Assembly: GCA_930986645.1 (NCBI GenBank)
Contig: CAKNJS010000001.1
Span: 1 to 64,000, forward strand
Source: an uncultured Lachnoclostridium sp.
GTDB lineage: Bacteria; Bacillota; Clostridia; Lachnospirales; Lachnospiraceae
Reading direction: 5' to 3'
DNA: 64,000 nucleotides
This document shows, piece after piece, positions 12,225 through 43,380 of this stretch (its first letter is position 1; the number at the start of each line of letters is the position of its first letter). The position numbers were made by a program, and so were the translations under genes. The notes beneath the pieces are model-generated. The model ran no database searches and was not told the origin of the DNA. It saw only the letters and a program-made list of their open reading frames with translations.

Positions 12225-12231
12225 AATACAT

Positions 12232-12997: not shown

Positions 12998-13282
12998 ATG
13001 GAAGAACAGCGTATTGCAAAATCACACAAGCTCGTAGTAAATAATAGGAAAACAAGTATGGTGACAGGGGTTCTGGACGTCCTTTCTTTCGACCTGAACG
13101 AGATCCTGCTGGAGACGGAGCAGGGGATGATGATGGTGAAAGGGACGGATCTCCATGTGAACAGGCTGAGTGTGGAAAAAGGAGAGGTGGATCTGTCCGG
13201 CAATATTGACAGTATCGCATATTCAAGCGCAACACCGGCAGGAAAGCAGGGAGAGAATTTCCTGTCAAAACTTTTTAAGTAG
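12998..13282 (+). CDS. yabP: Sporulation protein YabP
   Basis: 94 residues, matching YabP in length and in the pattern KLVVNNRKTSMVTGVLDV...FDLNEILLET. YabP is needed for spore coat or cortex assembly in Bacillus. The gene starts 55 bases after rqcP behind GGGAGGGAGT and is followed after nine bases by yabQ, the conserved order in spore formers. Confidence 0.9.
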   Translation: MEEQRIAKSHKLVVNNRKTSMVTGVLDVLSFDLNEILLETEQGMMMVKGTDLHVNRLSVEKGEVDLSGNIDSIAYSSATPAGKQGENFLSKLFK

Positions 13283-13291
13283 GAGCGGATT

Positions 13292-13624: not shown

Positions 13625-13674
13625 AATATTTTAACAATGGGGTATAAAAATATTGATAAGACGGGTGAGTATGA

Positions 13675-14013
13675 ATGAGTAAGACAAGACGACAGCAGAG
13701 CGGGAGCCGGTCGAGGAAGAAAAGAAATACGCGGCTCAGACATTACAGACAGAGTATATTGATGATCTGCATGGTGCTGGTATTTCTGTCGGGTGCACTG
13801 GCAATTGGTTCTTTAAGCCTTAATGCGAAGAACGCCGGGTACAAGGATCAGGAGAAGGAGCTTCAGGCGCAGATTGAGGAAGAAAAACAGCGGTCGGAAG
13901 AGATAGATGAATATGAAGAATACGTCAAATCGGATCAGTATATCAAGGACACGGCAGAGGACAAGCTGGGGCTGGTAGATCCCAATGAGATTGTATTCAA
14001 GCCGTCGAAATAG
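13675..14013 (+). CDS. Septum formation initiator (DivIC/FtsB family)
   Basis: 112 residues with a basic cytoplasmic N-terminus (about 1-25), one membrane segment (about 28-48) and an extracytoplasmic coiled coil (QEKELQAQIEEEKQRSEEI). A short conserved tail (EDKLGLVDPNEIVF) completes the FtsB/DivIC pattern. It should pair with FtsL and DivIB in the divisome and possibly with sporulation septation. Position after yabQ is the same as in Bacillus. A GGGTGAG ribosome site lies five bases before the ATG. Confidence 0.9.
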   Translation: MSKTRRQQSGSRSRKKRNTRLRHYRQSILMICMVLVFLSGALAIGSLSLNAKNAGYKDQEKELQAQIEEEKQRSEEIDEYEEYVKSDQYIKDTAEDKLGLVDPNEIVFKPSK

Positions 14014-14055
14014 CAGCACGGATCGTAACAGAATAATGAGGACAATATACAAATG

Positions 14056-14087
14056 AAAACTCCGGGAGAATTCTCCCGGAGTTTTTT
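14056..14087 (+). terminator. Terminator after divIC
   Basis: A perfect hairpin AAAACTCCGGGAG-aatt-CTCCCGGAGTTTT followed by T residues. It separates the rqcP-yabPQ-divIC unit from spoIIE. Confidence 0.92.
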
Positions 14088-14160
14088 GCTGGTGCGGTCC
14101 AAAGGCCGGACTGATGTGTGTCCGGCCGATAAGAAACAACGGAAAGGAGATACGGCAGGC

Positions 14161-15558: not shown

Positions 15559-15611
15559 AGGGACGGCGGTCTTCGGATGAAGCGGCTGTGCCATGGAACT
15601 GAACTGCCATC

Positions 15612-15640
15612 TTTACAATTTAAAATGAATTAGTTATAGT
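15612..15640 (+). promoter_or_regulatory. Sigma-A promoter of tilS, possibly giving a leaderless mRNA
   Basis: TTTACA at 15612-15617, a 17-base spacer and TATAGT at 15635-15640. The ATG lies only seven bases after the -10, about where transcription should start, and no ribosome site is visible. Confidence 0.65.
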
Positions 15641-15646
15641 TTACAT

Positions 15647-17149
15647 ATGATGAAGAATATAGTGGAACAGACGGAATTATTTATAAGAAAATACGGCATG
15701 ATCGAGAAGAATGACGTAGTGATCGCGGGTGTATCGGGCGGAGCGGATTCGGTATGCCTGCTTTTTATACTCTGCAGTCTTCAGGAGAGACTGGGATTTC
15801 GGGTAAAAGTGTGCCATGTGAATCATGAGCTGAGAGGCAGGGAGGCAGACGAGGATGAGGCATATGTAAAAGAACTGTGCGCCCGTCTGGGAGTACCCTG
15901 CCGTATTTTTCGGGAAGATGTGGAATTAATTGCCGCAAAAAGGAAACAATCTCTTGAGGAGGCAGGGCGCACTGTCCGCAGGGCGGCATTCGGGACAATG
16001 TGCAGGGAAGACGGGGGCACAAAAATTGCCACCGCCCATCACAGAGATGACAATGCAGAGACGGTTCTCCTTAATATTGCCAGAGGCACCGGGCTGAAAG
16101 GACTGTGCGGGATCCGCCCGGTTCAGGGAAGATGGATCCGGCCTCTTCTTGCCTCCAGCCGGGAGCAGATAGAGAGCTTCCTTAAAGCACAGGGGGTGTC
16201 GTGGAGGACTGATGCTACAAATGAGGAGGACGATTATACAAGAAACCGGATACGCCATAATATTCTCCCGGTTATGAAAGAACAGGTTAATGCCGGTGTT
16301 GTCCGGCATCTGGAGGAACTTTCCATGCAGTCGCTGGAAGTATGGCAGTATCTGGAACAGGGGGTGCAGAAAGCCCGGGAACGCTGTGTTTGTGTGCAGG
16401 AAGAACGGAACGGAGCATATCATGCAGGACAGAAGAAAGTGCCCGAAGTAATCCGGATCGGCGGAAAAGCATTCGGGCAGGAAGCGCCTGCCGTACAGAA
16501 GCAGCTGGTCAGGGAATGCATAGCCGCCGTGCGGGGAGGCGAAAAGGATATCGGATCCGTACACCTTAAATCGGTTACAGAACTTTTCGGCAGACAGTGC
16601 GGAAAGCGGGTTGATCTGCCGGGCGGCGTTACCGCCGAGCGGACATATGACGGCATTGTGATCCGGAAACGCCGAAATACAAAAGAAGAGGGAGCCGGGG
16701 AGATGCGGGAAGTGCTGCTCAATATCCCGGGAGAGACCCTTATGCCGGATGGAATTCACAGAGTAAAGTGCCGGTTCGCGGACATTTCCGAGAGGGATAA
16801 GGCGAAAGAGATCCCACAAAAAAGCTACACGAAATGGATTGACTATGATATAATAAAATATGGTCTTTCTGTGAGGACACGGCGGAGCGGAGATTATCTG
16901 ACGGTGGATGAACAGGGAAAACATCAGAAGCTGAAATCATGGTTTATTAACGAGAAAATTCCGCGTGAGCTCAGAGACAAAATGCTTCTTGTGGCGGACG
17001 GACACCATATCGTCTGGATACCGGGCAGAAGAATGAGCCGTGCCTGTCAGATCAGTAACAGGACAAAGAGGATTCTTGAGATGAAAATAACGGAGGATAA
17101 GAAAGATGTCAGAGACGATCAGAGTGCTGGTTCCGGAAGAGAAAGTTGA
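15647..17149 (+). CDS. tilS: tRNA(Ile)-lysidine synthase
   Basis: 500 residues. The N-terminal ATP pyrophosphatase PP-loop is VSGGADS (about residues 28-34), followed by CHVNHELRG and TAHHRDDNAET motifs. A linker and a C-terminal TilS substrate-binding domain (KLKSWFINEKIPRELRD...) complete the family. It converts C34 of the AUA-decoding tRNA-Ile to lysidine and is essential. The 3' end overlaps hpt by 44 bases. Two adjacent ATG codons occur at 15647 and 15650 with no ribosome site, which fits a leaderless message from the promoter just upstream. Confidence 0.93.
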   Translation: MMKNIVEQTELFIRKYGMIEKNDVVIAGVSGGADSVCLLFILCSLQERLGFRVKVCHVNHELRGREADEDEAYVKELCARLGVPCRIFREDVELIAAKRKQSLEEAGRTVRRAAFGTMCREDGGTKIATAHHRDDNAETVLLNIARGTGLKGLCGIRPVQGRWIRPLLASSREQIESFLKAQGVSWRTDATNEEDDYTRNRIRHNILPVMKEQVNAGVVRHLEELSMQSLEVWQYLEQGVQKARERCVCVQEERNGAYHAGQKKVPEVIRIGGKAFGQEAPAVQKQLVRECIAAVRGGEKDIGSVHLKSVTELFGRQCGKRVDLPGGVTAERTYDGIVIRKRRNTKEEGAGEMREVLLNIPGETLMPDGIHRVKCRFADISERDKAKEIPQKSYTKWIDYDIIKYGLSVRTRRSGDYLTVDEQGKHQKLKSWFINEKIPRELRDKMLLVADGHHIVWIPGRRMSRACQISNRTKRILEMKITEDKKDVRDDQSAGSGRES

Positions 17150-17633
17150 TGAGAGAATCAGGGAGCTTGGTAAGCAGATCAGTGAGGATTACAAGGGAAA
17201 ACAGATTCATCTGATCTGCGTGCTGAAGGGCGGTGTGTTCTTTATGTGCGAGCTGGCGAAACGGATCAGCGTGCCGGTATCCATGGACTTTATGTGTGTG
17301 GGAAGCTACGGAGACGGGACCGCTTCAAGCGGAGTCGTGCGCATTGCAAAAGACCTTGATGAGTCTATTGAGAATAAAGAAGTGCTTATCGTAGAAGATA
17401 TTATCGATTCAGGCAATACACTGTATTATCTGATCGATGTTCTGAAAAAGAGAAATCCGGCCAGTATGAGGCTGTGTACACTTCTGGATAAACCGGACAG
17501 AAGAGTAAAAGACGTGAAAGTCGACTACTGCGGTTTTGAGATCCCGGATGAATTCGTGGTAGGATACGGGCTTGACTATGCCCAGAAATACAGAAATCTT
17601 CCCTACATCGGGGTAGTGGAAGGTCTGGAATAG
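17106..17633 (+). CDS. hpt: Hypoxanthine phosphoribosyltransferase
   Basis: 175 residues. The PRPP-binding motif is VLIVEDIIDSGNTL (about residues 97-110), with the flexible-loop region MCVGSYGDGT and the C-terminal purine contact DEFVVGYGLDY. It salvages hypoxanthine and guanine to IMP and GMP. GGAGG precedes the ATG. The gene overlaps the end of tilS and precedes ftsH, the conserved Firmicute order. Confidence 0.95.
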   Translation: MSETIRVLVPEEKVDERIRELGKQISEDYKGKQIHLICVLKGGVFFMCELAKRISVPVSMDFMCVGSYGDGTASSGVVRIAKDLDESIENKEVLIVEDIIDSGNTLYYLIDVLKKRNPASMRLCTLLDKPDRRVKDVKVDYCGFEIPDEFVVGYGLDYAQKYRNLPYIGVVEGLE

Positions 17634-33545: not shown

Positions 33546-34046
33546 TTAAGCACCTGTCTTAAACAGAATTCCTCTGTATCTGTTCAGCGCTGTATACAGG
33601 ATCAGTCCGAGTACGCCGCAGGAAATCACTTCCCCGATTCCCACAGTCAGCATCATAAACGGAATCGGAAGCGGTACCATGTAGCCGTATTTCAGCACAA
33701 AAGGTACAACGATTACATTGGCAATGATCGGCGGAAGCGGTGCGAGATATTTACTCTTGTTCCTCAGCATCCATGTGAAAATTGCTCCGATCAGAGTAGC
33801 GAGGCTTCCGAAGATGATGTCCGGAAGAATGCATCCGCCGAGGATATTGCTGATGAGACATCCCAGAAATACACCCGGGATAGCTGCGGGGGTAAATACT
33901 GGAAGAATGGTCAGCGCTTCGGAAATACGAACCTGAACCTCTCCGTAACTGAATGACGCGCCGATAAGAGTCAGCACGACATAGATAGCGGCAATCATAG
34001 CCGCCTGTGCTATGAACAGCACTTTGCCTGATTGGTTGTTTTTCAT
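33546..34046 (-). CDS. queT: QueT-family ECF transporter S component
   Basis: 166 residues, about six membrane segments, with the family pattern AAIYVVLTL...GEVQVRISEALTILPVFTPAAIPGVFLGCLISN. This is the substrate-binding S subunit that takes up a queuosine precursor (probably preQ0/preQ1) through a shared ECF energy module encoded elsewhere. AAAGGAG at 34056-34062 precedes the ATG. Its whole 5' leader (34063-34181) is a structured RNA with its own promoter and forms the left end of the integrated element, so regulation by a ligand-binding leader is likely. Confidence 0.9.
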   Translation of the reverse strand: MKNNQSGKVLFIAQAAMIAAIYVVLTLIGASFSYGEVQVRISEALTILPVFTPAAIPGVFLGCLISNILGGCILPDIIFGSLATLIGAIFTWMLRNKSKYLAPLPPIIANVIVVPFVLKYGYMVPLPIPFMMLTVGIGEVISCGVLGLILYTALNRYRGILFKTGA

Positions 34047-34055
34047 TTTTTTGTT

Positions 34056-34163
34056 CTCCTTTAGTTTTGTTTTACGAGTGGAAGGTCTCGAACACTCGAT
34101 TCATTTAACGCCGGGAATCGGCGGCAAGCCCGATAGACCTTGGTTTTTGTGGGCTTTGCAACG
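34056..34163 (-). promoter_or_regulatory. Structured 5' leader of queT, candidate queuosine-precursor riboswitch
   Basis: Read on the minus strand the leader has three hairpins: AAGCCC/GGGCTT with a large loop, CGCCG/CGGCG, and CGAGTG/CACTCG. The first loop contains AAGGTCT (34135-34141 complement) and the third AGACCTT (34082-34088 complement), a perfect 7-base kissing or pseudoknot pair. An A-rich tail (TAAAACAAAACT) and the AAAGGAG ribosome site follow; CCTT in the third loop can also pair with AAGG of that site. This resembles preQ1 riboswitches in layout, and the gene fits, but I cannot assign a class from memory. Confidence 0.6.
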
Positions 34164-34181
34164 TGGGATAGTATAACACGG
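34063..34181. repeat. Left attachment-site repeat (queT promoter and leader)
   Basis: 119 bases aligned without gaps to 42526-42644, 103 identical. It ends exactly at the queT ribosome site on one side and just beyond the -10 element on the other. Longest identical runs are 24, 18 and 18 bases. It is read as attL of the element. Confidence 0.85.
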
Positions 34182-34198
34182 AGAAGGCTGAAATTCAA
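34170..34198 (-). promoter_or_regulatory. Promoter of queT
   Basis: On the minus strand: TTGAAT (34198-34193), a 17-base spacer and TATACT (34175-34170). The -10 lies in the 24-base stretch shared with the right copy. The -35 differs from that of the other copy and may belong to the element. Confidence 0.65.
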
Positions 34199-34201
34199 GC
34201 T

Positions 34202-34220
34202 GTACCCACAATTTACCCAC
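34202..34220. other. Integrase arm-type sites, left end
   Basis: GTACCCACAAT at 34202-34212 and TACCCAC at 34214-34220. The 11-mer recurs at the right end in the same orientation, as expected for integrase arm sites of a tyrosine-recombinase element. Confidence 0.6.
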
Positions 34221-34228
34221 ACCGAAAT

Positions 34229-34266
34229 AAAAAAGCACTCTATCCCGTGTAGGACAGGGTGCTTTT
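34229..34266. terminator. Bidirectional terminator after the repressor gene
   Basis: Stem AAAAAGCACTCT.TCC with GGA.AGGGTGCTTTTT, A tract before and T tract after. It stops repressor transcription before the queT promoter. Confidence 0.8.
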
Positions 34267-34272
34267 TAGGGT

Positions 34273-35034
34273 TCATTTGAGAAGAAGATTTTCTATGGTG
34301 CAAATAGTATAGGAATCTAAGATTTTAATAAAGTTTTGTAATCCCTGTTCTGAAATAGTTTTTACTAAATTTCCTTTATAATATACTTCAAAGTAAATTG
34401 ATATATCATAATTCTCTTTTATAATGTTTTTCGGACCGATGTAGATATCATCCCAGAGGGAGTCTGAGGGTGGAAGAGTCCGCGCTCCTTTTATAAGATC
34501 ATCTGTTCGTAAAAACGGAGTGTTTGGTAGTGGAGCGGATAGTTTAATTGTACAGTATTGGGAAAAATACTTTTTATAAAAATTTTTTAGATCCAGGGTG
34601 AAATCATATTCTTGCTTTAGCTGTTCTAAAGAGGATGGATCTATGAAAGGTGTTAAATGATCGATATTTTTATATAGTGTGGTCAGGCTACAATATAGAG
34701 AATTAATTGGTTTGAATTTCAGTCCGATTGATTCAACATAATTAAGAACAACACTCATATTTCGCATTCCCTTACTCTTTAGAAATGAGTGCATTTCCTC
34801 AGAGGTTTTGTATTCACTGGCTCCAAGCAAATAATCTTCATCAACATGTAATTTCTCGGCAAATATATGAGCAGCTTCCCGTGTCATTGAACGCCTTGAA
34901 TTAGCGATATTATTAATATGCTGTACTGTATAAGGCGTGATTTTAGAAAGTTCTTTTTGTGTCAGCTTTGAATCCTTTATACATTCTTTTAATCTTTTCC
35001 CCTGTATTGGGTTTATTTTTTCGGATTTTTTCAT
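34273..35034 (-). CDS. XRE-family repressor of the element
   Basis: 253 residues. The N-terminal helix-turn-helix (about 8-70: GKRLKECIKDSKLTQKELS...INNIANSRRSMTREAAHIFAEKLHVDEDYLLG) is of the XRE/Cro type. The remaining ~180 residues match no family I can name. It is divergent from the excisionase, and the gap between them has repeated TTGATATAT sites. By position it keeps the element quiet. The gene is richer in A+T than the host genes around it. Confidence 0.82.
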   Translation of the reverse strand: MKKSEKINPIQGKRLKECIKDSKLTQKELSKITPYTVQHINNIANSRRSMTREAAHIFAEKLHVDEDYLLGASEYKTSEEMHSFLKSKGMRNMSVVLNYVESIGLKFKPINSLYCSLTTLYKNIDHLTPFIDPSSLEQLKQEYDFTLDLKNFYKKYFSQYCTIKLSAPLPNTPFLRTDDLIKGARTLPPSDSLWDDIYIGPKNIIKENYDISIYFEVYYKGNLVKTISEQGLQNFIKILDSYTICTIENLLLK

Positions 35035-35050
35035 GTGATTATCTCCTTAA

Positions 35051-35107
35051 ATATATCAAATTACAGATATAAGTGAATATGTCAAATGATTGATTTTGAT
35101 ATATCAA
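35051..35107. promoter_or_regulatory. Repressor operators
   Basis: Three related sites: ATATATCAA (35051-35059), ATATGTCAA (35077-35085) and the perfect palindrome TTGATATATCAA (35096-35107). They lie between divergent genes, where a lysogeny-type repressor would bind. Confidence 0.62.
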
Positions 35108-35122
35108 TAGTTTACAATATTA

Positions 35123-35151
35123 TTGTAACAGATATCACAACGGCTTACAAT
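35123..35151 (+). promoter_or_regulatory. Rightward promoter of the element
   Basis: TTGTAA (35123-35128), a 17-base spacer and TACAAT (35146-35151), 35 bases before the excisionase start. Confidence 0.58.
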
Positions 35152-35186
35152 AGCTAGATAAACAAAGATAAATGAAAGGAGTAATC

Positions 35187-35390
35187 ATGAGAAACAGAAC
35201 AGTAACAGCTACAGTAGGGGAATCCCGCTTAATGGACACGGAAGAATTAAGGGCATACACAAATCTTGGACGTAACAATGCTATGAAACTGGGCGAAGAG
35301 ATTGGCGCAAAGGTGCAGATTGGGCGTCGCGTATTATGGGATCGCCGTAAGATTGATGAGTATTTCAATTCACTTACGGGGGTAAGATAA
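35187..35390 (+). CDS. Excisionase-like small HTH protein
   Basis: 67 residues with a MerR/Xis-like winged helix: LMDTEELRAYTNLGRNNAMKLGEE, then VLWDRRKIDEYFNSL, which is the usual excisionase finish. It resembles the DUF6462-type proteins of Lachnospiraceae elements. First gene of the rightward operon, behind AAAGGAG; the stop overlaps the next start (TAATG). Likely directs excision together with the integrase. Confidence 0.75.
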   Translation: MRNRTVTATVGESRLMDTEELRAYTNLGRNNAMKLGEEIGAKVQIGRRVLWDRRKIDEYFNSLTGVR

Positions 35391-35767
35391 TGCAGAAAGA
35401 AAATAGAAATAACCGAGTACATATAGGGGATCAGTCCGGCAAGACTGAGTTTCCAATAATGAGCCTGCTGCCAGTAGGAAAAGAAAATGCAATCAGTACA
35501 GCGGATCTGGTGCGGCTGACGGGCTGTAAATCTGCCCGGGATCTTCAGGAGCGTATCGCTTATGAGAGAAATCACGGTGCTGTGATATGTTCCGGCTCCG
35601 GGCGGGGTTACTGGAAACCGAAGGACCGGCAGGAGATACAGGAGTTTGTCAGGACGATGGACGCAAGGGCGTTGAATACTCTGAGAGCAGCGAAGAGTGC
35701 GAGAGCGGCTTTGAAAATTCCGGCCGGGCAGCAGGTCATAGAAGGGAGCGGAAAAGATGGCAAATAA
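35390..35767 (+). CDS. Element protein of unknown function, HTH-like
   Basis: 125 residues. The middle segment AISTADLVRLTGCKSARDLQERIAYERNHGAVICSG looks like a winged helix used in replication control, followed by a basic helical tail. It overlaps both neighbours by a few bases. I recognise no named family; a role in element replication or its control is inferred from position. Confidence 0.6.
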   Translation: MQKENRNNRVHIGDQSGKTEFPIMSLLPVGKENAISTADLVRLTGCKSARDLQERIAYERNHGAVICSGSGRGYWKPKDRQEIQEFVRTMDARALNTLRAAKSARAALKIPAGQQVIEGSGKDGK

Positions 35768-36518
35768 AAGAATGTTCTGCCTCGATGTTGTAGATACAGA
35801 TTTATTTCTGGAAATGCCTACCAGTTCGCAGGCGTTATATTTTCAGTTGGGAATGAGAGCTGATGATGATGGTTTTGTATCTTCGCCGAAGAAAATTGCT
35901 AAGATTACAAGCTGCGGGGAAGATGATCTCAGGCTTTTGGCGTCAAAAGGGTATATTATCCCGTTTGATAGCGGAGTGATTGTGGTTACGCACTGGGGAA
36001 TTAATAACAACAAGATAAAAGGGGATCGGTACAAGCCGACCATTTACAGCAGAGAAAAATCGATGCTGACTCAAAGTGGCGGAGTGTATTCCACTGTTGG
36101 AACCGAAATGGTTCCAGAATGTCTCCAAAGTGGAGACACCTCGGAACCTCAGAATAGATTAGATAAGAATAGAATAGATAAGAGTAATAACTATAGTGTG
36201 CATTTCGAGGAGTTTTGGAAAGCATATCCGAGAAAAAAGGAGAAGGCAAAGGCGCATAAATGCTATTTGGCCAGATTAAAAGATGGCTTTTCAGAAGAGG
36301 AGCTGCTGACTGCTGCCCAAAGATATGCGGAAGAGTGCAGAGAGAAACACACCGAGGAAAGATATATAAAACATGGAGCTACTTTCCTGAGTGCAAATAC
36401 TCCATTTACTGATTATCTAACGAAAGGAGATGAAAACGATGGCGAATCGGATGATCAGGATAGGCGACCAGCATCAGATTACTACACAGAGTTTCTCGGG
36501 GGATGCAGTAGTGACTGA
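35757..36518 (+). CDS. Phage-type replication initiation protein
   Basis: 253 residues. The N-terminal winged-helix region (about 1-90: MANKRMFCLDVVDTDLFLEMPTSSQALYFQLGM...VVTHWGINN in part) is typical of phage replisome organisers. A variable Ser/Gln-rich linker with repeated RLDKNRIDKS follows, then a C-terminal helical module (EEFWKAYPRKKEKAKAHKCYLARL). It precedes a DnaC-like loader, the usual initiator-loader pair. Overlaps the upstream gene by 11 bases and the loader by 80. Confidence 0.82.
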   Translation: MANKRMFCLDVVDTDLFLEMPTSSQALYFQLGMRADDDGFVSSPKKIAKITSCGEDDLRLLASKGYIIPFDSGVIVVTHWGINNNKIKGDRYKPTIYSREKSMLTQSGGVYSTVGTEMVPECLQSGDTSEPQNRLDKNRIDKSNNYSVHFEEFWKAYPRKKEKAKAHKCYLARLKDGFSEEELLTAAQRYAEECREKHTEERYIKHGATFLSANTPFTDYLTKGDENDGESDDQDRRPASDYYTEFLGGCSSD

Positions 36519-37293
36519 GGTTCATGGAATACAGACGCCAGATCAAAAGGGAGTGCTTGTGAATTATCGCATTGAAGATTATGGAGAAACAAATGCCTTC
36601 TATTTGCCAGATAGTCAAATTCTTGAAGCTCAGGCGGATGGCAGACGGAGCAGGAGTGGTATGCCAAAAGAATATGTCTATAAAACTGCAAAGAATTTTG
36701 ACTGGATGCAATATGGCGAAGATGTGTCTGTACAAAAGAAGATAGCAAATGCCTTTGTAAAACGCTTTGATATGTTCAGAAAGCAGGGGAGAGGGCTTTA
36801 TATCTATTCCGATACGAAAGGCAGCGGTAAGACGATGTTGGCGTGCTGTATTGTAAATGAGGTTCTGAAAGAATTTGATATCCCGGTCAAATTTATCTCT
36901 ATGCCGGAATACATAGAGCTTGTGAAAGATAAGAGCGAAGGCGCAAAGGCAAAGATAAAATCTGTGTTGGAGGCTGTGCTTCTAATCGTGGATGATATTG
37001 GTGCGACAACGGAGGATAAGGAGTGGATTTCCAACGCCATCTTCCGGCTTGTAAACAGGCGTCACGAGAATTTGTTGCCGACGATATACACAAGCAATGT
37101 TCCAATTGAGAAATTAAAGACTGATGATCGAATTGTGAGCCGGATCTATGAGGACTCTGTACCGGTAATTATGCCAGAAGTTAGTATACGTCGAAAAAAG
37201 GCGGATAAGTACAGAAGTGAATTTTTAAGACAGATTCTTGAAGAAAAAGAGCCAGCCGCAAGTGGCCAAGCCCTTCCTGATTCTGATAAATAA
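36439..37293 (+). CDS. DnaC-like helicase loader ATPase
   Basis: 284 residues. AAA ATPase with Walker A SDTKGSGKTML (about residues 131-141), Walker B VLLIVDDIGATTEDKEW (about 174-190) and arginine finger region ...RIVSRIYEDSVPV. It should load the host DnaB helicase at the element origin. I take ATG 36439, nine bases after AAAGGAG; the ATG at 36430 directly abuts that site. The 80-base overlap with the initiator indicates coupling. Confidence 0.85.
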   Translation: MANRMIRIGDQHQITTQSFSGDAVVTEVHGIQTPDQKGVLVNYRIEDYGETNAFYLPDSQILEAQADGRRSRSGMPKEYVYKTAKNFDWMQYGEDVSVQKKIANAFVKRFDMFRKQGRGLYIYSDTKGSGKTMLACCIVNEVLKEFDIPVKFISMPEYIELVKDKSEGAKAKIKSVLEAVLLIVDDIGATTEDKEWISNAIFRLVNRRHENLLPTIYTSNVPIEKLKTDDRIVSRIYEDSVPVIMPEVSIRRKKADKYRSEFLRQILEEKEPAASGQALPDSDK

Positions 37294-37315
37294 AGTATAA
37301 GGGAGAAGGCTGCTC

Positions 37316-38203
37316 ATGTCAAATGTGGACCTTGAAAACAGAATATTGACAAATGAGGAACTTGTTTCACTGATTCAGACAGGAAAAAACAGGGCTGATA
37401 ATATGCTTGCACTATGGCAACAGTGCGAAAAGTTCGTTGCTGTGTTTGCCCGGAAATATACGGGGCTGGCCGAATATGAAGATTTAATGCAAAGTGGATT
37501 TATCGGGCTGTATAATGCGGTTCAGGGCTATGAACCAGACAGGGGCATGAAGTTTATAAGCTACTGTGGTTTCTGGATCAGGCGGGAAATGCAGAGGTGT
37601 GTCAACGAAACAAGAGGTATTCACATTCCTGCTGATATGGGAAATAGTGTACAAGAATATAAAAAGGCTGTATCAAAGTATATGCAGAAATATGGCTATG
37701 AACCGTCAGAACGCGAAATAAGCGTGATAATGGGAGTGAGTCGGGAAAAGTTACGACAGATACACCAAACGGCTCAAATAGGACAAATACAAAGCCTGAG
37801 CGAACCCGTAGAGAATGAAGACGGAGAGATGAGCCTTGAAGAATGTATCGCCTCTCCTGAAAATCTGGAAGAAGCTACTGTTAAAGCTATGGATGCAGAA
37901 GAGATGAAACGCGAGTTGTGGCTTGCGGTCGACAATTTGCCAGAGGAAGAGGCGACAATAATTTATAATGTTTATCTGGATGATATGACCAGAGCGGCAG
38001 CAGGCAAGGCTATAGGCGTAAGTCAGAGTAAAGCGCGAGCATTAGAGAACAGGGCATTGCAAACGCTCAGACGGTCGCATAAAACGAAATATCGGAGATA
38101 CTCTGAGGAGTATATTTCTGCTGCTCCGATTTCACATACTGGCTTAAAGAGTTTCAAGACAACATGGTGGAGTGGTACGGAAAGGTTGGCAATAAAAGAC
38201 TGA
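37316..38203 (+). CDS. Element-encoded sigma-70 family factor with regions 2, 3 and 4
   Basis: 295 residues. Region 2 (AEYEDLMQSGFIGLYNAVQGYEPDRGMKF...YCGFWIRREMQ in part), region 3 (YMQKYGYEPSEREISVIMGVSREKLRQI) and region 4 (VDNLPEEEATIIYNVYL...AAAGKAIGVSQSKARALENRAL) are all present, so it resembles a housekeeping or flagellar/sporulation sigma rather than an ECF factor. It is the last gene of the rightward replication operon, 23 bases after the loader. It may switch on late element genes or redirect host polymerase. Confidence 0.85.
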   Translation: MSNVDLENRILTNEELVSLIQTGKNRADNMLALWQQCEKFVAVFARKYTGLAEYEDLMQSGFIGLYNAVQGYEPDRGMKFISYCGFWIRREMQRCVNETRGIHIPADMGNSVQEYKKAVSKYMQKYGYEPSEREISVIMGVSREKLRQIHQTAQIGQIQSLSEPVENEDGEMSLEECIASPENLEEATVKAMDAEEMKRELWLAVDNLPEEEATIIYNVYLDDMTRAAAGKAIGVSQSKARALENRALQTLRRSHKTKYRRYSEEYISAAPISHTGLKSFKTTWWSGTERLAIKD

Positions 38204-38209
38204 ACAGAT

Positions 38210-38259
38210 CCCCCCTCCTCATACTCGGACGATCTACCCCGGTTCTACCGGCAGGGGGT
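38210..38259. other. GC-rich hairpin after the sigma factor gene
   Basis: CCCCCCT and AGGGGG arms (38210-38216, 38253-38258) enclose an inner CCGGTTCTACCGG stem. There is no T tract, so it may be a replication or nicking origin rather than a terminator; this is a guess. Confidence 0.4.
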
Positions 38260-38319
38260 AAGCATTTCCAACTCTAAAGGTAAATTGTGAAAAAGGGGAA
38301 AAGAGATGAGGATAATGGT

Positions 38320-38345
38320 AGATTTGTGAGTCCCTAAAAAGAAAG
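38320..38345 (+). repeat. Copy 1 of a 25-base element repeat
   Basis: AGATTT-GT-GAGTCCCTAAAAAG, followed by AAAG. The same pattern occurs twice in tandem at 40794-40844. Confidence 0.65.
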
Positions 38346-38372
38346 CCGCCCCACGAACTGGCACGGAGCGGC
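38336..38372 (-). terminator. Terminator of the RHH-Uma2 operon
   Basis: On the minus strand GCCGC...GCGGC stem followed by TTTCTTTTT. Confidence 0.65.
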
Positions 38373-38378
38373 AATGTT

Positions 38379-38924
38379 TTAAAATTCTATGGCGTTAAAA
38401 TCAATCTCCAGATCATCATAGATCCCGGCTTTGACAGCCTCAGAGAAAGTATATTCTGCGGTATCGTCGGACTCAAAGGAATAAACCGTGATTCTGTTCT
38501 TTTCAGGATCAACAATCCAGTATTCACGAACTCCGGCAGTACGGTATTTGAACAGTTTAGTATAGTAGTCTGTTCGCCTGCTGCCCGGGGAAACGATCTC
38601 AATGATCCAGTCCGGCGCACCTGTGCAGCCTTTGTCTGTAAGCTTGTCAGGGCTGCATATAACGCTTATATCCGGCTCGACATAGTTTTTATCATCTGCG
38701 TTGAGGAATACGGCAAATGGGGCAATATCGACCTCACAGGAGCCGCCTTTATCCTTGATATAGTTATTGATGATGGTTGAAAGCTCCAGTGTGATCCGCT
38801 GATGCCTCCGCGTGGGCGGTGCCATCATATACATCTGGCCATCGATCAGTTCTGCTCGCTGTCCGTCCGGAAGGGCATAGATATCATCAATGGTATACTC
38901 TTTGTTCTGTTGCAGTAATGGCAT
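38379..38924 (-). CDS. Uma2 family endonuclease (DUF820)
   Basis: 181 residues of the PD-(D/E)xK fold: GQRAELIDGQMYMM (Glu), YVEPDISVIC (catalytic Asp region), DWIIEIVSPGSRRTDYYTKLFKY (Glu and Lys) and GVREYWIVDP. Uma2 proteins are widespread predicted nucleases; their role is not settled. ATG chosen behind AAAGGATG. It follows a ribbon-helix-helix gene by 46 bases in the same direction and lies within the element, opposite to the replication genes. Confidence 0.85.
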   Translation of the reverse strand: MPLLQQNKEYTIDDIYALPDGQRAELIDGQMYMMAPPTRRHQRITLELSTIINNYIKDKGGSCEVDIAPFAVFLNADDKNYVEPDISVICSPDKLTDKGCTGAPDWIIEIVSPGSRRTDYYTKLFKYRTAGVREYWIVDPEKNRITVYSFESDDTAEYTFSEAVKAGIYDDLEIDFNAIEF

Positions 38925-38970
38925 GGTAACACATCCTTTCATGGTGAGAGTGTTGACAGTTGCATAGAGG

Positions 38971-39171
38971 TTATACGGAGTCACGCTCCATTCGCTCATT
39001 AACAGAACGAACAATAAAAGCATTCACGCTTTCTCCGTGTCTTTTTGCATGATCCTTTATTATTTCCTTTTGTCCTTTTGGAAAAGTAACGTTAATTCTA
39101 TCATAATTGTTCTTTACATATTTGTTTACCGCTTTTTGCTGTGCTTTGCTAATTTTTGATTCTTCAGGCAT
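38971..39171 (-). CDS. Ribbon-helix-helix (Arc/CopG-type) protein
   Basis: 66 residues: a Lys-rich N-terminus, a short strand (DRINVTFPKGQ) and two helices (EIIKDHAKRHGESVNAFIVRSVNERM), the classic RHH DNA-binding pattern. The start is placed at 39171 because AGGTGA precedes it; the frame is also open six codons further. It is upstream of Uma2 and beside three direct repeats at 39245-39324, which may be its operators. Confidence 0.78.
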   Translation of the reverse strand: MPEESKISKAQQKAVNKYVKNNYDRINVTFPKGQKEIIKDHAKRHGESVNAFIVRSVNERMERDSV

Positions 39172-39244
39172 TTGTTCACCTACTTTCATTAATTTATAGA
39201 TAGATATACTGCATCTATTTTATAAAGATTATAAACTAAAAATC

Positions 39245-39324
39245 TATTGATGTAAATATACAATATTACTAAATATATTGGTGTAAATATAGCAATTATG
39301 CCAATAGACTATTGGTGTAAATAG
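39245..39324. repeat. Three direct repeats TATTGRTGTAAATA
   Basis: Copies at 39245-39258, 39276-39289 and 39310-39323, starts 31 and 34 bases apart, roughly three helical turns. The last is joined to an inverted half (CCAATAGaCTATTGG, 39301-39315). They lie between divergent genes and could be operators of the RHH protein or iterons of a replication origin. Confidence 0.7.
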
Positions 39325-39333
39325 ATGTATAAT
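39305..39333 (+). promoter_or_regulatory. Promoter of the small-gene operon
   Basis: TAGACT (39305-39310), a 17-base spacer and TATAAT (39328-39333). The third direct repeat lies inside the spacer, so binding there would block it. Confidence 0.55.
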
Positions 39334-39339
39334 AAGACC

Positions 39340-39460
39340 ATAAGATAAAGGTAAGGCAAACGAACAGCCCGAAAAGCTGCAAAGCCGGAAACCATATCCC
39401 TGTGAGCGAAGTCGTGGACGAGGTGCAATAGTCAGGAAGATGATCCGGCCGGATGCATCC
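39340..39460 (+). ncRNA. Structured leader or small RNA of unknown class
   Basis: Begins at the expected transcript start. Stems: CAGC/GCTG with loop CCGAAAA (39365-39379), a long-range GCCGGA/TCCGGC (39384-39389 with 39444-39449), an inner CCTG/CAGG, and the palindrome GGATGCATCC (39451-39460). The opening GGCAAAC...GAAA...GCAAAGCC faintly recalls the cyclic-di-GMP-I riboswitch, but the second half does not fit what I remember. Class unassigned. Confidence 0.4.
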
Positions 39461-39496
39461 GATATCTTAGAAAAAACAATGGAAGGAGACAGGAAC

Positions 39497-39826
39497 ATGA
39501 AATACAATCTCAGGGCGATCATGTTAAGAGCATGGAAGAACTACCGTAAGATGCAGCTTTCATTCGCGGAGTGTTTACATAGAGCATGGCTCTCAGCGAA
39601 AGCCGAGGAAGTCAATTCTAAGCGGATTGAAAACGCGAAAGCGGCAGCAGGAATCAACGAGGATACGAACACATGGAGCGGATGGAAACAGCTCGGATAT
39701 GAAGTGATACACGGCAGCAGGGCGTTGTTTGGTGCAGAGCTGATCTGGGGAAGTAAGGGTGATGGTGCTGTATACAAAGCGAGATTCTTCGGACGCTCTC
39801 AGGTGCAGGAGATCGCGACAGCATAA
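39497..39826 (+). CDS. Small conserved element protein
   Basis: 109 residues. Basic N-terminal half (MKYNLRAIMLRAWKNYRK, LSFAECLHRAWLSAKAEE) with helices that could bind nucleic acid, then a Trp-containing segment and a beta-rich end. The start follows GGAAGGAGAC. I do not recognise a named family. It has its own promoter and a 150-base structured leader. Confidence 0.65.
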   Translation: MKYNLRAIMLRAWKNYRKMQLSFAECLHRAWLSAKAEEVNSKRIENAKAAAGINEDTNTWSGWKQLGYEVIHGSRALFGAELIWGSKGDGAVYKARFFGRSQVQEIATA

Positions 39827-39832
39827 AGAAAA

Positions 39833-39922
39833 TGCCCTTGCCAGTGCTGAAACACTGACAGGGGCAGCACAGCCGGAGCCATGCAGTAACATACCATTTA
39901 CATAATAGCATGGATCCTCCGG
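39833..39922 (+). other. Two adjacent strong hairpins
   Basis: TGCCCTTG.CAGTG/CACTG.CAGGGGCA (39833-39866) is followed by CCGGAG-CCATGC/GCATGG-CTCCGG (39873-39922). Only the second is near the next ribosome site. No T tract, so these are more likely RNA structural elements than terminators. Confidence 0.5.
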
Positions 39923-39938
39923 GGAAAGGAAGGGAAAA

Positions 39939-40424
39939 ATGAAAAAATACTTAAAAGATTTAACTGTTGATGACCTGAATACATTTAAATATCCGAACCT
40001 TATGGCGGAGGTAAAAGAAACCAGTTACTCTATATGCACCATAGCGGATCATATAGGGCTTCCAAGGCCGTATCGTAAGGAGGATGACTCGGAAACATGG
40101 GATAAGCTGACAGGGAGAACGGAAATAACGGCAGATGAATCACTCCGCCTCGCCAATTTGTTTGGTGTCTTTCCGGAATATCTTTTCGGTCATGAATTAA
40201 AAGTTGTTTCCGGACAGTCAGCCGCTTATTGGCGTTGGTTGGATAGAAACAGGGAGATAGATAAGGAGATCGAGCGCAGTAATCAGATTCGGAAAATTGA
40301 GCAGGAATTGAAAGACAAGCCGTATCTGTTTGAATTTGTAAAAGAGGCGGTTACATTGAATCATGATGAGATAGAAGATTTTATAAAAATTCTCAGGAAG
40401 ATGGAAAGGGGAAATCATAAATGA
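39939..40424 (+). CDS. XRE-like element protein
   Basis: 161 residues. An XRE-like region (about 30-85: YSICTIADHIGLPRPYRKEDD, WDKLTGRTEITADESLRLANLFGVFPEYLFG) suggests DNA binding. A charged coiled segment follows (DRNREIDKEIERSNQIRKIEQELKD), then a C-terminal helix. The start follows GGAAAGGAAGGG. It overlaps the next small gene by four bases. Function unknown. Confidence 0.65.
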   Translation: MKKYLKDLTVDDLNTFKYPNLMAEVKETSYSICTIADHIGLPRPYRKEDDSETWDKLTGRTEITADESLRLANLFGVFPEYLFGHELKVVSGQSAAYWRWLDRNREIDKEIERSNQIRKIEQELKDKPYLFEFVKEAVTLNHDEIEDFIKILRKMERGNHK

Positions 40425-40609
40425 ATCATGAAATTGTCGAAAAATTCATAATCGAAATGTATCACACAACACCAGACGAACGCGAGATGATAAAGCTTGT
40501 GCTGCTGAATGGAAATAAGGATAAACCGGCTGTATTCGGATTTCTGAATGCAGTATTTAATTTAATTGAAACACTCAGTCCGAAGATGATTGAAATGAAG
40601 ATGCAATAA
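40421..40609 (+). CDS. Small protein of unknown function
   Basis: 62 residues, helical and acidic/basic mixed (HEIVEKFIIEMYHTTPDEREMIKLVLLNG). Starts in the ATGA overlap with the preceding gene, so it is probably translated by coupling. Not recognised. Confidence 0.55.
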   Translation: MNHEIVEKFIIEMYHTTPDEREMIKLVLLNGNKDKPAVFGFLNAVFNLIETLSPKMIEMKMQ

Positions 40610-40614
40610 AACCC

Positions 40615-40778
40615 ATGCCCTCCCGGGAAAGGTGCTGCAACATCCGATCCGGGCGGCAGGGGATCAGATCAGAGAGTGAACGGCGCTCCGGCGTGCTACC
40701 AATACTGCCGGGGCATGAGAGAATGAAGAACCGCCCTCCCTGGGGAGCTGCGCCAACAGTAGAACTGAGGCGGCGGTT
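40615..40778. other. Hairpin-rich non-coding stretch
   Basis: ATGCCC (40615-40620) pairs with GGGCAT (40711-40716), and AACCGCC (40729-40735) with GGCGGTT (40772-40778). A short open frame here is Arg/Pro-rich and has no ribosome site, so I read it as structured RNA or DNA rather than a gene. Confidence 0.45.
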
Positions 40779-40793
40779 GATAACAGAAATCGG

Positions 40794-40844
40794 AGATTTT
40801 GGAGTCCCTAAAAAGGCGAGATTTCCGAGACCTTAAAAAGAAAG
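40794..40844 (+). repeat. Copies 2 and 3 of a 25-base element repeat, in tandem
   Basis: AGATTT-TG-GAGTCCCTAAAAAG at 40794-40815 and AGATTT-CC-GAGACCTTAAAAAG at 40819-40840, exactly 25 bases apart. Copy 1 is at 38320. Confidence 0.65.
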
Positions 40845-40855
40845 AAGGTGAGAGA

Positions 40856-41104
40856 ATGAGCAAATTGCAGGATATTTACCAGAGAGTCTATAATAATACG
40901 CCTGCTGCCACTGTCGATGATAATACAGTAGGCGAGGCAGTCCGAGAGCAGATTGAGCGCGAGAAGAGCCGGGCAGGTGGTCCGTTATCAGAGGATGAGT
41001 GGTCAGATCTGGTCTGTCTCGGCACAAGCTACGGACAGGCGCAGGGCTTCGAGAGCGGCTTCAGGTATGCTCTGGCACTGATCTTCGAAAGCCTGAGCAA
41101 CTAA
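40856..41104 (+). CDS. Small element protein (DUF6809-like)
   Basis: 82 residues: KLQDIYQRVYNNTPAATVDD, an acidic helical middle and a final GQAQGFESGFRYALALIFES helix. Similar short proteins are frequent on Lachnospiraceae elements; the family name is from memory. ATG follows GAAGGTGAGAG. Function unknown. Confidence 0.6.
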   Translation: MSKLQDIYQRVYNNTPAATVDDNTVGEAVREQIEREKSRAGGPLSEDEWSDLVCLGTSYGQAQGFESGFRYALALIFESLSN

Positions 41105-41246
41105 AAGCCCCGCGGTGCGGCAACACCACGAGGCAAAACAGAAATAACCCAATACACACGATAAAGGGTCAACATGATTATATACTGTCATGTGGCCCTA
41201 TTGCAATATGTGAACTGACGTTCAGACGGCAGAGAAAGGGGCAGAC

Positions 41247-42368
41247 ATGGCAGTTGATAGCAAAGGGAAAAAATTACCATCAGGAATACGACAGAGAGCC
41301 AACGGGAGATATGAGGGGCGCATAAAATACGACTATAAAAGCTATTCGGTTTATGCCGATACGATAACCGAAACTAAAAAGAAAATGCGCGATCTGAAGT
41401 ATAAGCTAGAGCATGGTCTTTTCGTATCAAAAGAAAGGATTACACTGGATGCATGGTATAAAACATGGCTGGAGGAATATAAAAAGAATCGGGTGAAGAT
41501 TGGAACGTATACCAGCTATGAAAAATATTATCAGAGTGTTATTAAGAGCAGACTCGGCAGCAGGAACTTAAATGATATACGAGGCGAGCATATTCAGAAA
41601 TTGTACAATGATCTGGTAAAAGAGGGGTATGCACTTTCAAGTATCAAAATTGTATCTGCTGTGTTGAATGGTTGTTTTAAGCAGGCAGAGCGGAACGGTC
41701 TAATTGAACGGAATCCGGTGAAATTAGCAGAATTACCACGCCAGACTGAGAAGAAAACACGGCAGGCCATGACAAGAGAACAGCAGGCGTTGTTCATGGA
41801 ATATGCGAAGGAAAGCTATTTATATCATTTCTTTGAGGTTATGCTCCGTACCGGCATGAGAAAAGGAGAGATGCAGGGGCTTAAATACCCGGATGTAGAC
41901 CGAAAGGCAAATGTTATACACGTCAGGCGCACACTGAAATATATTGAGCATCACGGATATATCGAGGATACGCCGAAAACCCGGACTTCTACAAGGGATA
42001 TTCCGCTGACTGCTGCCATATTGGAACATATAGAGGCACAGCGGAATTACTGGGGCTTTAAGGTCGTTAATATGAATCAGTATATTTTCTGCAATGAAAG
42101 AGGGGAGGCGCTGAGCAGGGAAAGAATACAGGCGGAAATAGACCGGATTATAAAGCGGATCAGGGCAGCAGGTCACGACTTCCCGAGGATTACTTCCCAT
42201 GTGTTCCGGCATACATTTGCCACCAGAGCAATAGAGGCGGGGATGCAGCCGCAGGTATTAAAGACGATTCTCGGGCATAGTTCCCTTGCTATGACAATGG
42301 ATCTGTATAGTCACGTTTTGCCGGATACAAAGGCGGAGGAAATGGAGAAAATAGCAAGCGTATTTTAA
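41247..42368 (+). CDS. int: Tyrosine-type site-specific integrase
   Basis: 373 residues. An N-terminal arm-binding domain (about 1-60), a SAM-like core-binding domain (about 64-150) and a catalytic domain with the Arg in RTGMRKGE (about residue 202), HVFRH (His/Arg, about 312-316), GHSS (about 338) and the nucleophile Tyr in LYSHVL (about 350). The start is behind AAAGGGGCAGAC. It should recombine the two 119 bp repeats that border the element. It lies next to the right-hand repeat, as usual for such integrases. Confidence 0.95.
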   Translation: MAVDSKGKKLPSGIRQRANGRYEGRIKYDYKSYSVYADTITETKKKMRDLKYKLEHGLFVSKERITLDAWYKTWLEEYKKNRVKIGTYTSYEKYYQSVIKSRLGSRNLNDIRGEHIQKLYNDLVKEGYALSSIKIVSAVLNGCFKQAERNGLIERNPVKLAELPRQTEKKTRQAMTREQQALFMEYAKESYLYHFFEVMLRTGMRKGEMQGLKYPDVDRKANVIHVRRTLKYIEHHGYIEDTPKTRTSTRDIPLTAAILEHIEAQRNYWGFKVVNMNQYIFCNERGEALSRERIQAEIDRIIKRIRAAGHDFPRITSHVFRHTFATRAIEAGMQPQVLKTILGHSSLAMTMDLYSHVLPDTKAEEMEKIASVF

Positions 42369-42389
42369 GGGGCCTGCTGCCCTCTTTTT
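42369..42389 (+). terminator. Terminator after the integrase
   Basis: GGGGC/GCCC short stem followed by TCTTTTT. Confidence 0.6.
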
Positions 42390-42392
42390 CGT

Positions 42393-42421
42393 GTGGGTAT
42401 ACCCACTTTTGTACCCACAAT
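42393..42421. other. Integrase arm-type sites, right end
   Basis: Palindrome GTGGGTATACCCAC (42393-42406) and GTACCCACAAT (42411-42421). The 11-mer is identical to that at 34202 near the other end. Confidence 0.6.
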
Positions 42422-42445
42422 GCAGTAAATAGTGATAAATTAGAA

Positions 42446-42485
42446 TAAAAAGAAAGAGCCCGAAAACACGTTGTTTTCATGGCTC
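42446..42485 (-). terminator. Terminator of the orphan leader RNA
   Basis: Minus strand: GAGCC-AT-GAAAAC, loop, GTTTTC-G-GGCTC, then TTTCTTTTT. It ends transcription 41 bases after the right-hand RNA copy and protects the integrase gene from antisense transcription. Confidence 0.8.
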
Positions 42486-42525
42486 AGTAATCAACCATAA
42501 ACCTATATAAATAGGTAAGAATCGA

Positions 42526-42632
42526 AGTTTTGTTTTACGTGTGGAAGGTCTCGAACACACGGCACATTTTACGGCGGTGACCGCCGGTAAGCCCGATAGA
42601 CCTTGGATGTTGCGGGCTTAGCAACGTGGGAT
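42526..42632 (-). ncRNA. Orphan copy of the queT leader RNA
   Basis: Same three hairpins as the queT leader. CGTGTG/CACACG replaces CGAGTG/CACTCG, and CGGCGG/CCGCCG replaces CGCCG/CGGCG: both are paired changes that keep the stems. The AAGGTCT and AGACCTT loop elements are identical. The homology stops exactly where queT has its ribosome site, and no gene follows, only a terminator. Expected transcript about 180 bases. Confidence 0.65.
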
Positions 42633-42644
42633 AGTATAACACGG
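42526..42644. repeat. Right attachment-site repeat
   Basis: Partner of 34063-34181, 103 of 119 bases identical and no gaps. Read as attR. Confidence 0.85.
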
Positions 42645-42684: not shown

Positions 42685-43380
42685 TCATCCTTTCAGCAGA
42701 TTCTCGATCATCCTTGAGGCTTCACTCCGTGTGATCGTCTTTGGATTCCACTTTATTGAAGCATGCCTTTTGCGGATCAAGCTTTCCAAAAGAGCGATCT
42801 GTTTTGCCGTAGCAGGCTGAGGTTTTCTGATTTTATATGTAAGCTGTACCGGCTTAAAGAGTTTCGGGTCTTTATCTTCAAAATAATGCGCCAGTGTCTG
42901 GTAGAGCTTTGCGGCTGCCAGCGCATCATGGTAAGCACGGTGTGCGGATTTGTTCTCGATGTGATAATAATCGCACAGACTGCCGAGGCTTTTTGACTTC
43001 AGACTGCTGTGAACCTTCTGGGCAATTTTTAATGTATCAATTCCCATTTTTTCGAAAGTCAGTCCGTCTGCCGCTGCGCTGCATTTCATAAAACTGTAGT
43101 CAAAAGATACATTGTGTCCGATCAGCACATCTTCTTCACAGAAATCGAGAAAATCGGACACAACGCTGCGCCGTGAGCGTGCTCCCGCTACCATCTCGTT
43201 GGTGATTCCGGTCAGAGAGGTGATCGCAGGCGAGATGGAAGCAGCCGGTTTAATGAATTCCATGAAGCGTTCCGCTACTTTACCGTTCCGGACTTTCAAA
43301 GCGCCGATTTCTATAATCTCATTTTCCAGCGGATTCAGGCCCGTTGTTTCAACGTCAAATGCTATATATGATTTCAACAT
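42685..43380 (-). CDS. DnaQ/PolC-type 3'-5' exonuclease
   Basis: 231 residues. The DEDDh exonuclease motifs are FDVETTGL (about residues 8-15), IGHNVSFDY (about 88-96) and HRAYHDALAA (about 147-156). The last ~60 residues form a separate helical tail (ATAKQIALLESLIRKRHASIKWNPKTITRSEASRMI in part) resembling SAP/UvrC-like or RNase T accessory domains. Stand-alone enzymes of this type trim DNA or RNA ends. Before element insertion it was probably the gene upstream of queT. Confidence 0.9.
   Translation of the reverse strand: MLKSYIAFDVETTGLNPLENEIIEIGALKVRNGKVAERFMEFIKPAASISPAITSLTGITNEMVAGARSRRSVVSDFLDFCEEDVLIGHNVSFDYSFMKCSAAADGLTFEKMGIDTLKIAQKVHSSLKSKSLGSLCDYYHIENKSAHRAYHDALAAAKLYQTLAHYFEDKDPKLFKPVQLTYKIRKPQPATAKQIALLESLIRKRHASIKWNPKTITRSEASRMIENLLKG

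Follow-up and report, generated by a model that had tools for sequence, protein, structure and literature searches.

The window analysed here is a stretch of 64,000 nucleotides from an uncultured Lachnoclostridium sp. of the Lachnospiraceae (assembly GCA_930986645.1, contig CAKNJS010000001.1, positions 1 to 64,000). It contains two direct copies of a promoter and structured RNA leader: one precedes queT, whose product has a queuosine-related role, and the other lies between the gene for a tyrosine integrase and that for an exonuclease. An earlier note on this DNA had read the interval from 34063 to 42644 as an integrated element that uses the queT leader as its attachment site. The two junctions comprise the following features (strand in brackets).

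33546..34046 (-): queT, gene of the QueT transporter and target of the element (PF06177, 168 bits)
34056..34062 (-): ribosome-binding site of queT, AAAGGAG, directly 3' of the aptamer tail and on the host side of the junction (from the sequence)
34063..34076 (-): probable crossover segment CGTAAAACAAAACT, queT side (exact run common to both copies, plus the P1 allele argument given below)
34063..34098 (-): preQ1-I-like aptamer of 36 nt with P1 CGAGT/ACTCG (RF00522, 24.7 bits at 34055-34103, below the cut-off of 39)
34063..34181 (-): queT-side junction, with promoter, upstream RNA domain and preQ1-I-like aptamer before queT; apparently supplied by the element
34170..34198 (-): promoter TTGAAT-17-TATACT, inside the element (weak consensus scan)
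42526..42539 (-): probable crossover segment, integrase side (exact shared run)
42526..42644 (-): integrase-side junction, putatively the old host promoter, leader and aptamer, severed from the ribosome-binding site
42685..43380 (-): exonuclease gene, directly before the queT leader in element-free relatives (locus comparison)

The copies at 34063-34181 and 42526-42644 match at 103 of 119 positions without a gap. Their period is 8,463 bp, and at either flank the similarity is lost abruptly. The left copy lies directly upstream of the QueT-family gene; the right copy adjoins the exonuclease gene, which in element-free relatives directly precedes the queT leader. The integrase gene (Phage_integrase, 100 bits) ends 158 bp from the right copy, and arm-type repeats with an 11-bp period are found in the same orientation at both ends of the element (34202-34223 and 42400-42421). 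On all these points the earlier note was borne out. What has to be revised is its view of the whole 119 bp as a single duplicated att site: the two segments are homologous leaders, and the attachment core probably lies within the 36-nt aptamer, in its 3' tail. Very probably, then, the interval 34063-42644 is an element of about 8.46 kb that was inserted by integrase-mediated recombination between attP and a preQ1-I-like riboswitch in the queT leader. Each copy carries a sigma-70-like promoter with a 17-nt spacer, detected with a weak scan for which 0.7 and 0.8 sites per region are expected by chance; after integration, the promoter upstream of queT would lie in element sequence. The motif A(A/G)AGGAG directly follows the aptamer in 16 queT-side copies, the rows having been sorted by this very flank. 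A tRNA gene was considered as an alternative target, and ARAGORN found none in the window.

The leader RNA

The 3' part of the leader appears to be a preQ1-I-like aptamer. It combines a paired P1, a conserved loop and an A-rich tail that leads into the ribosome-binding site, with queT downstream, and the stems are paired in both copies. Because the tail runs straight into AAAGGAG, the arrangement suggests that queT is controlled at the level of translation, and preQ1 might exert such control through either copy. All five pairs of P1 (G-U allowed) are formed in each of the 62 distinct leaders caught by our pattern, 47 of which have a ribosome-binding site behind them and 15 of which do not. In an alignment of 34 leaders of one length class, the 30 proposed pairs are standard in 96.4% of cases, with a structure drawn from one alignment row, which favours that structure. 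Six pairs have changed on both sides (6 of 500 shuffles scored as high) and covariation is 0.108 versus a shuffled mean of 0.055 (none of 500 as high); structures slid along the alignment as a control drop to 27-45% paired.

At the Rfam gathering threshold the sole match in the whole window is a SAM riboswitch (RF00162, 57577-57674, 69 bits), which is unrelated to the element. With strict filters the genome itself yields no RF00522 match at E <= 1e-4, and a phylum-wide scan that gave matches in 15 of 398 genomes at that value is too insensitive for this aptamer type to reveal other elements that target aptamers, having missed the window's own genome.

Upstream of the aptamer, the window (34063-34169, minus strand) and the 33 other leaders have a hairpin with the loop AAGGUCU, complementary to the loop of the aptamer (AGACCUU). 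The contact is paired in 96.2% of cells, with no pair changed on both sides; a kissing contact or an anti-aptamer is only a suggestion. Extra hairpin-like modules of about 40-60 nt were noticed by eye at differing places in the leaders of L027, L028, L029, L036, L040, L042, L044, L046, L074 and L112 (L numbers denote loci, G numbers genomes), as if the leader were modular.

Paired junctions in other genomes

A search for the integrase beside queT elsewhere, suggested in the earlier note, showed that the family recurs next to queT leaders. In a set of named genomes, 16 loci encode a relative. Ten of these lie near an aptamer (L004-L010, L015, L016 and L018), the relatives in L016 and L018 being fragments, the former about 0.9 kb from the aptamer; in five (L011-L014 and L017) the stretch compared contains no aptamer, and L019 is a distant match. 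Eleven of 397 sampled Lachnospiraceae genomes encode the integrase at E <= 1e-100. Six of them have it at the aptamer site (G000, G327, G318, G309, G359 and G239, in the last case 4 kb inside), and in the remaining five the aptamer is absent from the integrase contig by the pattern used. Within the genus, 6 of 58 genomes carry an integrase at E <= 1e-80, five at queT (G000, G002, G004, G042 and G048) and one on another contig (G022, 47% identity). The aptamer word itself occurs, within 3 mismatches, in 171 of the 397 Lachnospiraceae genomes.

Both copies were found in the same orientation on a single contig at 14 loci, 2,111 to 17,191 bp apart: the window, L130 (=L004), L128 (=L006), L129, L007, L008, L009, L120-L124, L125 (=L018) and L126. 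The integrase is full-length in 11 of them, a fragment in two (L123 and L125) and missing in L126. Ten of the 11 full-length integrases, from several genera, end 134-173 bp from the copy that does not precede queT. At least three of the loci are from isolates (L007, a complete chromosome, L008 and L009), and the arrangement is therefore no artefact of metagenome assembly. In these loci, queT follows the copies that have A(A/G)AGGAG behind them, and none of the others; since copies were sorted by the bases after the aptamer, the difference in flank is by itself circular, and the position of queT is not. On the queT side the aptamer continues into the ribosome-binding site of queT, and on the other side into element DNA. 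Of 19 rows lacking the A(A/G)AGGAG flank, 18 read ...AAAACAAAACT followed by T, the exception being the relic L126; by eye, a TTTAT-like word recurs about 14 bases beyond this.

Some loci depart from this pattern. L010 has its integrase on the queT side, with the probable other end on another contig (L132); L127 is rearranged, with copies on opposite strands; L016 and L136 show one end only; and L131 and L150 are two contigs of G048. Among 98 relatives of G309, a pattern search gave a match in 15 and no junction beyond those of G309 and G119.

The earlier note had held that integrase relatives at unrelated sites, or both RNA copies in relatives lacking the integrase, would speak against the leader as the target. 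As to the former, relatives of at least 76% identity are all near an aptamer (full-length in seven loci, fragments in others), and below that value the picture is mixed: L011-L014 and L017, with no aptamer on the stretch compared, are 62-70% identical, and less similar integrases are found at the aptamer in G318 (72%), G002 (63%), G309 (62%), G359 (59%) and perhaps G239 (50%). As to the latter, L126 is the sole case; its copies are 2.1 kb apart and it looks like a relic. An integrase tree of 23 rows unites the six closest in a supported clade (99/99). The queT-site label requires 7 changes over this tree, which is no improvement on shuffled labels (as few in 197 of 500), and 12 of 20 inner branches are unresolved; for these reasons neither a single origin nor several origins of queT-site specificity is shown. 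When 11 loci of off-site relatives were scanned for other riboswitches at the Rfam gathering threshold, one RNA was found, a skipping-rope RNA in L085. In L012, a related integrase (8483-9903, 69% identity) lies upstream of a large gene that by eye resembles a dehydratase activator, and a 16-bp repeat, CGTTAATTTTCTGTTA, occurs about 8.1 kb away; the site is an off-riboswitch target of the same integrase family.

Position of the crossover

In 13 of the 14 pairs the run common to both copies stops at ...AAAACAAAACT, the relic L126 again being the exception, and the 20 flanking bases beyond it agree at 2-7 positions. At six loci (L008, L122, L123, L124, L129 and L130) the longest common word in the 80 nt upstream of the aptamer is 8 nt or less. 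Sharing is thus confined to the aptamer at these loci, with runs of 25-38 nt (14 nt in L130). Three loci (the window, L130 and L120) have P1 alleles that match within each copy and differ from one copy to the other, and there the run shrinks to the 14-nt CGTAAAACAAAACT. An exchange inside the hairpin would mix alleles, and since P1 is paired in all 62 leaders it seems unlikely; to judge by these alignments, the crossover is probably located in the A-rich 3' tail that separates the P1 stem from the ribosome-binding site. The stranded copy of L006/L128 is instructive in this regard. It is still joined upstream to a Uma2 gene, a terminator and an arm resembling the left end of the window's element, and a newer element therefore appears to have inserted on the 3' side of an older leader that is complete.

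Loci without the element

If the element entered between the exonuclease gene and queT, the earlier note reasoned, these should be contiguous with the leader in relatives that lack it. This is the case in five congeners (G054, G050, G041, G010 and G038), in which the aptamer lies 122-200 bp from the end of the exonuclease gene and no member of the integrase family is found at E <= 1e-80. The two genes are adjacent in G009 and G022 too, with no aptamer fitting the pattern. Many other loci of the genus are at contig ends, have no exonuclease match in the stretch compared or contain intervening genes; in several, such as G037, G020, G056, G014 and G023, a Uma2 gene is found beside the leader or queT.

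Tandem arm-type repeats with a 10-12-bp period are present just upstream of the queT -35 in 20 of the 38 testable promoters of the genus (48 loci, 10 untestable). They also lie above the -35 in all 11 element or relic loci of other genera and in 2 of 16 testable distant loci of the family; among shuffled controls for the three sets, 181 of 3,800, 57 of 1,100 and 45 of 1,600, respectively, were at or above the threshold. Fifteen of the 20 genus promoters with repeats have no close integrase relative. Since the integrase is at the site in five of the 20 genomes only, most of the repeats in the genus are probable scars, that is, element ends left behind, a reading for which elements with other integrases were not searched.

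Genes of the element

The remaining features of the element, from left to right, are as follows.

34202..34223 (no strand): left arm-type repeats GTACCCACAAT and TTACCCACACC, just upstream of the -35
34230..34267 (no strand): terminator-like hairpin inside the left end, foldable on both strands (-20.1 and -19.0 kcal/mol; z -6.3 and -4.6)
34273..35034 (-): helix-turn-helix (HTH) repressor-like protein (PHROG 8, 2439)
35187..35390 (+): 67-aa protein, DUF6462-like below the cut-off
35390..35767 (+): 125-aa protein that recurs in related elements (PHROG 2113, function unknown)
35757..36518 (+): DnaD-like helicase loader (PHROG 8489, 4e-61)
36430..37293 (+): DnaC-like helicase loader (PHROG 50, 6e-39; PF01695)
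37316..38203 (+): sigma-70-family factor
38379..38924 (-): Uma2-family protein (PF05685)
38971..39189 (-): Arc-like small DNA-binding protein (PF03869)
39440..39826 (+): 128-aa protein that recurs in related elements
39939..41104 (+): three small open reading frames (ORFs) of 161, 62 and 101 aa, no family match (the 62-aa ORF scanned in PHROGs only)
41247..42368 (+): tyrosine integrase, full-length ORF (PF00589, 100 bits; PF14659; PHROG 1, 5e-75)
42400..42421 (no strand): right arm-type repeats TACCCACTTTT and GTACCCACAAT
42456..42485 (-): terminator-like hairpin with its T-run facing transcription from the stranded leader (fold -15.6 kcal/mol, z -4.1; missed by the consensus scan)

The 67-aa protein at 35187..35390 is a possible excisionase. 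The terminator-like hairpins just inside the left and right ends probably shield the new queT promoter from the element and, likewise, the integrase gene from the promoter that was stranded. Judged by its genes, the element is satellite-like in layout: integrase, repressor and replication module, with no capsid genes recognised among the 13 ORFs scanned, are a combination expected of a phage satellite or phage-inducible chromosomal island (PICI). No capsid, terminase, relaxase or packaging-hijack genes were recognised in these 13 ORFs (not each ORF was compared with every library), and the relaxase by which an integrative and mobilizable element (IME) is recognised was absent from the 12 window proteins scanned against Pfam.

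Uma2-family genes occur both inside elements and beside the queT leader or queT in relatives lacking the integrase (L141, L145, L146, L157, L165 and others). The 128-aa protein at 39440-39826 gives a very weak match to the anti-CRISPR family AcrIIA3 (20.6 bits where the cut-off is 70, E 3.6e-4). A 17-kb element at the same riboswitch site in L129 (G002, 1600-17400) encodes a relaxase (PF03432), a coupling-protein-like ATPase, RecT and YqaJ, from which we conclude that different kinds of element use one site.

Discussion

In the mechanism that we propose, the integrase would recombine attP with the preQ1-I-like riboswitch of the queT leader, most likely exchanging strands within the A-rich tail at the 3' end of the aptamer (CGTAAAACAAAACT), in the interval from the P1 stem to the ribosome-binding site. 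Immediately 5' of the crossover, attP would bear a complete set of promoter, leader and aptamer. Integration would fuse this promoter and riboswitch to queT's own ribosome-binding site and leave the old host promoter and riboswitch stranded at the integrase end, before a terminator-like hairpin. Upon decay of the element, its promoter and leader might remain as the control region of queT.

A number of observations weigh against this scheme. Strands might instead be exchanged on the 5' side of the aptamer, within the leader or close to the -10, in which case the native aptamer would stay with queT and the element would have brought the integrase-side copy. In 6 of the 14 pairs (the window, L128, L007, L009, L121 and L125) words of 13-58 nt are common upstream of the aptamer as well, and to these can be added a 49-nt word in L126 and a 59-nt word, further out, in L120. 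L128 and L007 share the block from the arms to the -10, before different leaders, and the right copy of the window has, by eye, the look of a chimera, A-type in its 5' part and B-type in its 3' part. We nonetheless consider a 5' crossover quite improbable, as the six loci in which no upstream word longer than 8 nt is shared within 80 nt offer little homology for strand exchange, and as the stranded copy of L006/L128 is an older leader, complete and with a scar of its own upstream. Homologous recombination must also reshuffle leaders, and for that reason it is not proven for each single locus which copy is borne by the element. G054, the nearest empty site and in its queT one of the closest to the window, has arm repeats and is a scar rather than a virgin site, and the repeats are weak in 2 of the 20 genus promoters (G012 and G039), about two being expected by chance. 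The RF00522 matches lie below the threshold, and further pair types in the 34-leader RNA do not exceed shuffles (341 of 500). As for a circular form, viral contigs gave 0 matches to the attP junction pattern and the assembly contains only two leader copies, a negative result that proves little.

The aptamer could also be a conserved DNA word that happens to lie near queT, its riboswitch nature being irrelevant to the element and neither copy needing to function. The Rfam matches are in keeping with this, RF00522 scoring 24.7 bits in the left copy and 14.2 bits in the right, in permissive scans, against a gathering cut-off of 39, and the word is as common among Lachnospiraceae genomes as a broad-host attB needs to be. 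Such an explanation is unlikely in our view, given that P1 is paired in all 62 distinct leaders, including the 15 without a ribosome-binding site, that the RNA structure shows compensatory changes and that the queT-side junction comprises a promoter and a whole leader, more than a core. It is hardly conceivable that the host leader was simply duplicated and the integrase element is a coincidental neighbour. L126 (G119), with two copies and no integrase match, speaks for such a duplication; against it, the integrase ends at a nearly fixed distance from the non-queT copy in 10 of the 14 paired loci, in several genera, and contiguous sites exist without the integrase. We rejected a duplication-only model on account of this recurrent association.

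Across 76 distinct queT-side leaders, identity to the window in the upstream leader and in queT can differ widely; where a leader contains inserted modules, these account for its low value. In Claveliimonas (L007) the upstream leader is 96% identical and the queT DNA 72%; in G002 the values are 47% for the leader and 91% for queT. The Claveliimonas case suggests a natural route for the exchange of riboswitch and promoter between species. On balance, we lean towards the broader view that the riboswitch aptamer serves as a broad-host attB in the Lachnospiraceae for divergent integrases and unrelated cargos, and that the elements act as vectors of riboswitch leaders. The control region of queT would be replaced horizontally time and again, because each integration would swap promoter and riboswitch, which stay behind on decay. 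As the arm sites abut the new -35, integrase or excisionase bound there could affect queT transcription. In practical terms, the aptamer would provide a short attB at a known position in many gut Lachnospiraceae (the 171 of 397 genomes mentioned above).

The earlier note considered the use of a cis-regulatory RNA as attB unusual. Integration into the leader is supported by our data; a precedent exists, however, in a prophage of Enterococcus cecorum that is reported to lie in a PreQ1 riboswitch upstream of a nucleoside hydrolase gene, where a change of expression was called likely (PMC10117131). The likeness is that of a mobile element in a PreQ1 riboswitch; the one line given to the case in that report mentions neither resupply, nor the crossover, nor recurrence in other genera, and it is the one instance of integration into a preQ1 riboswitch in the open-access literature searched (PMC10117131). 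Islands specific for dusA, such as IMEVchUSA3, provide their target with a new promoter, as shown for IMEVchUSA3 by a lacZ fusion (PMC8409611, PMC4482086). They and SXT in prfC resemble our element in entering at a 5' end and supplying a promoter; there, as these papers describe the sites, coding 5' ends are hit and a new N-terminus is made, whereas here the exchanged part would be a non-coding promoter and aptamer, with coding sequence and ribosome-binding site intact (PMC8409611, PMC4482086). In streptococci, integrative and conjugative elements (ICEs) in the 5' ends of rbgA and ebfC, and SpyCI, offer a further parallel, in that integration alters the upstream sequence, promoter included (rbgA and ebfC); the account of these sites reports no riboswitch and no resupplied homologous leader (PMC4701971). 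Pneumococcal prophages use csRNA and SRP RNA genes, and so share with our element a non-coding RNA gene as attB; as presented there, these targets are not ligand-binding cis-regulatory leaders (PMC8637289).

Integration into a preQ1 riboswitch and promoter resupply by dusA and prfC integrators were thus already known, and what appears to be new here is the resupply of a riboswitch, of which we found no report in the open-access literature. A cis-regulatory RNA would thereby join the list of gene parts that are interrupted and then restored by integrative elements, sensor and promoter being apparently replaced and the coding gene spared. When a tRNA gene is the target, the integrating element restores its 3' part; the window element, in contrast, would resupply the 5' part. 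Like the tRNA and tmRNA islands covered by Islander, it would use conserved RNA-encoding DNA as attB and restore its target from its own sequence (PMC4383910).

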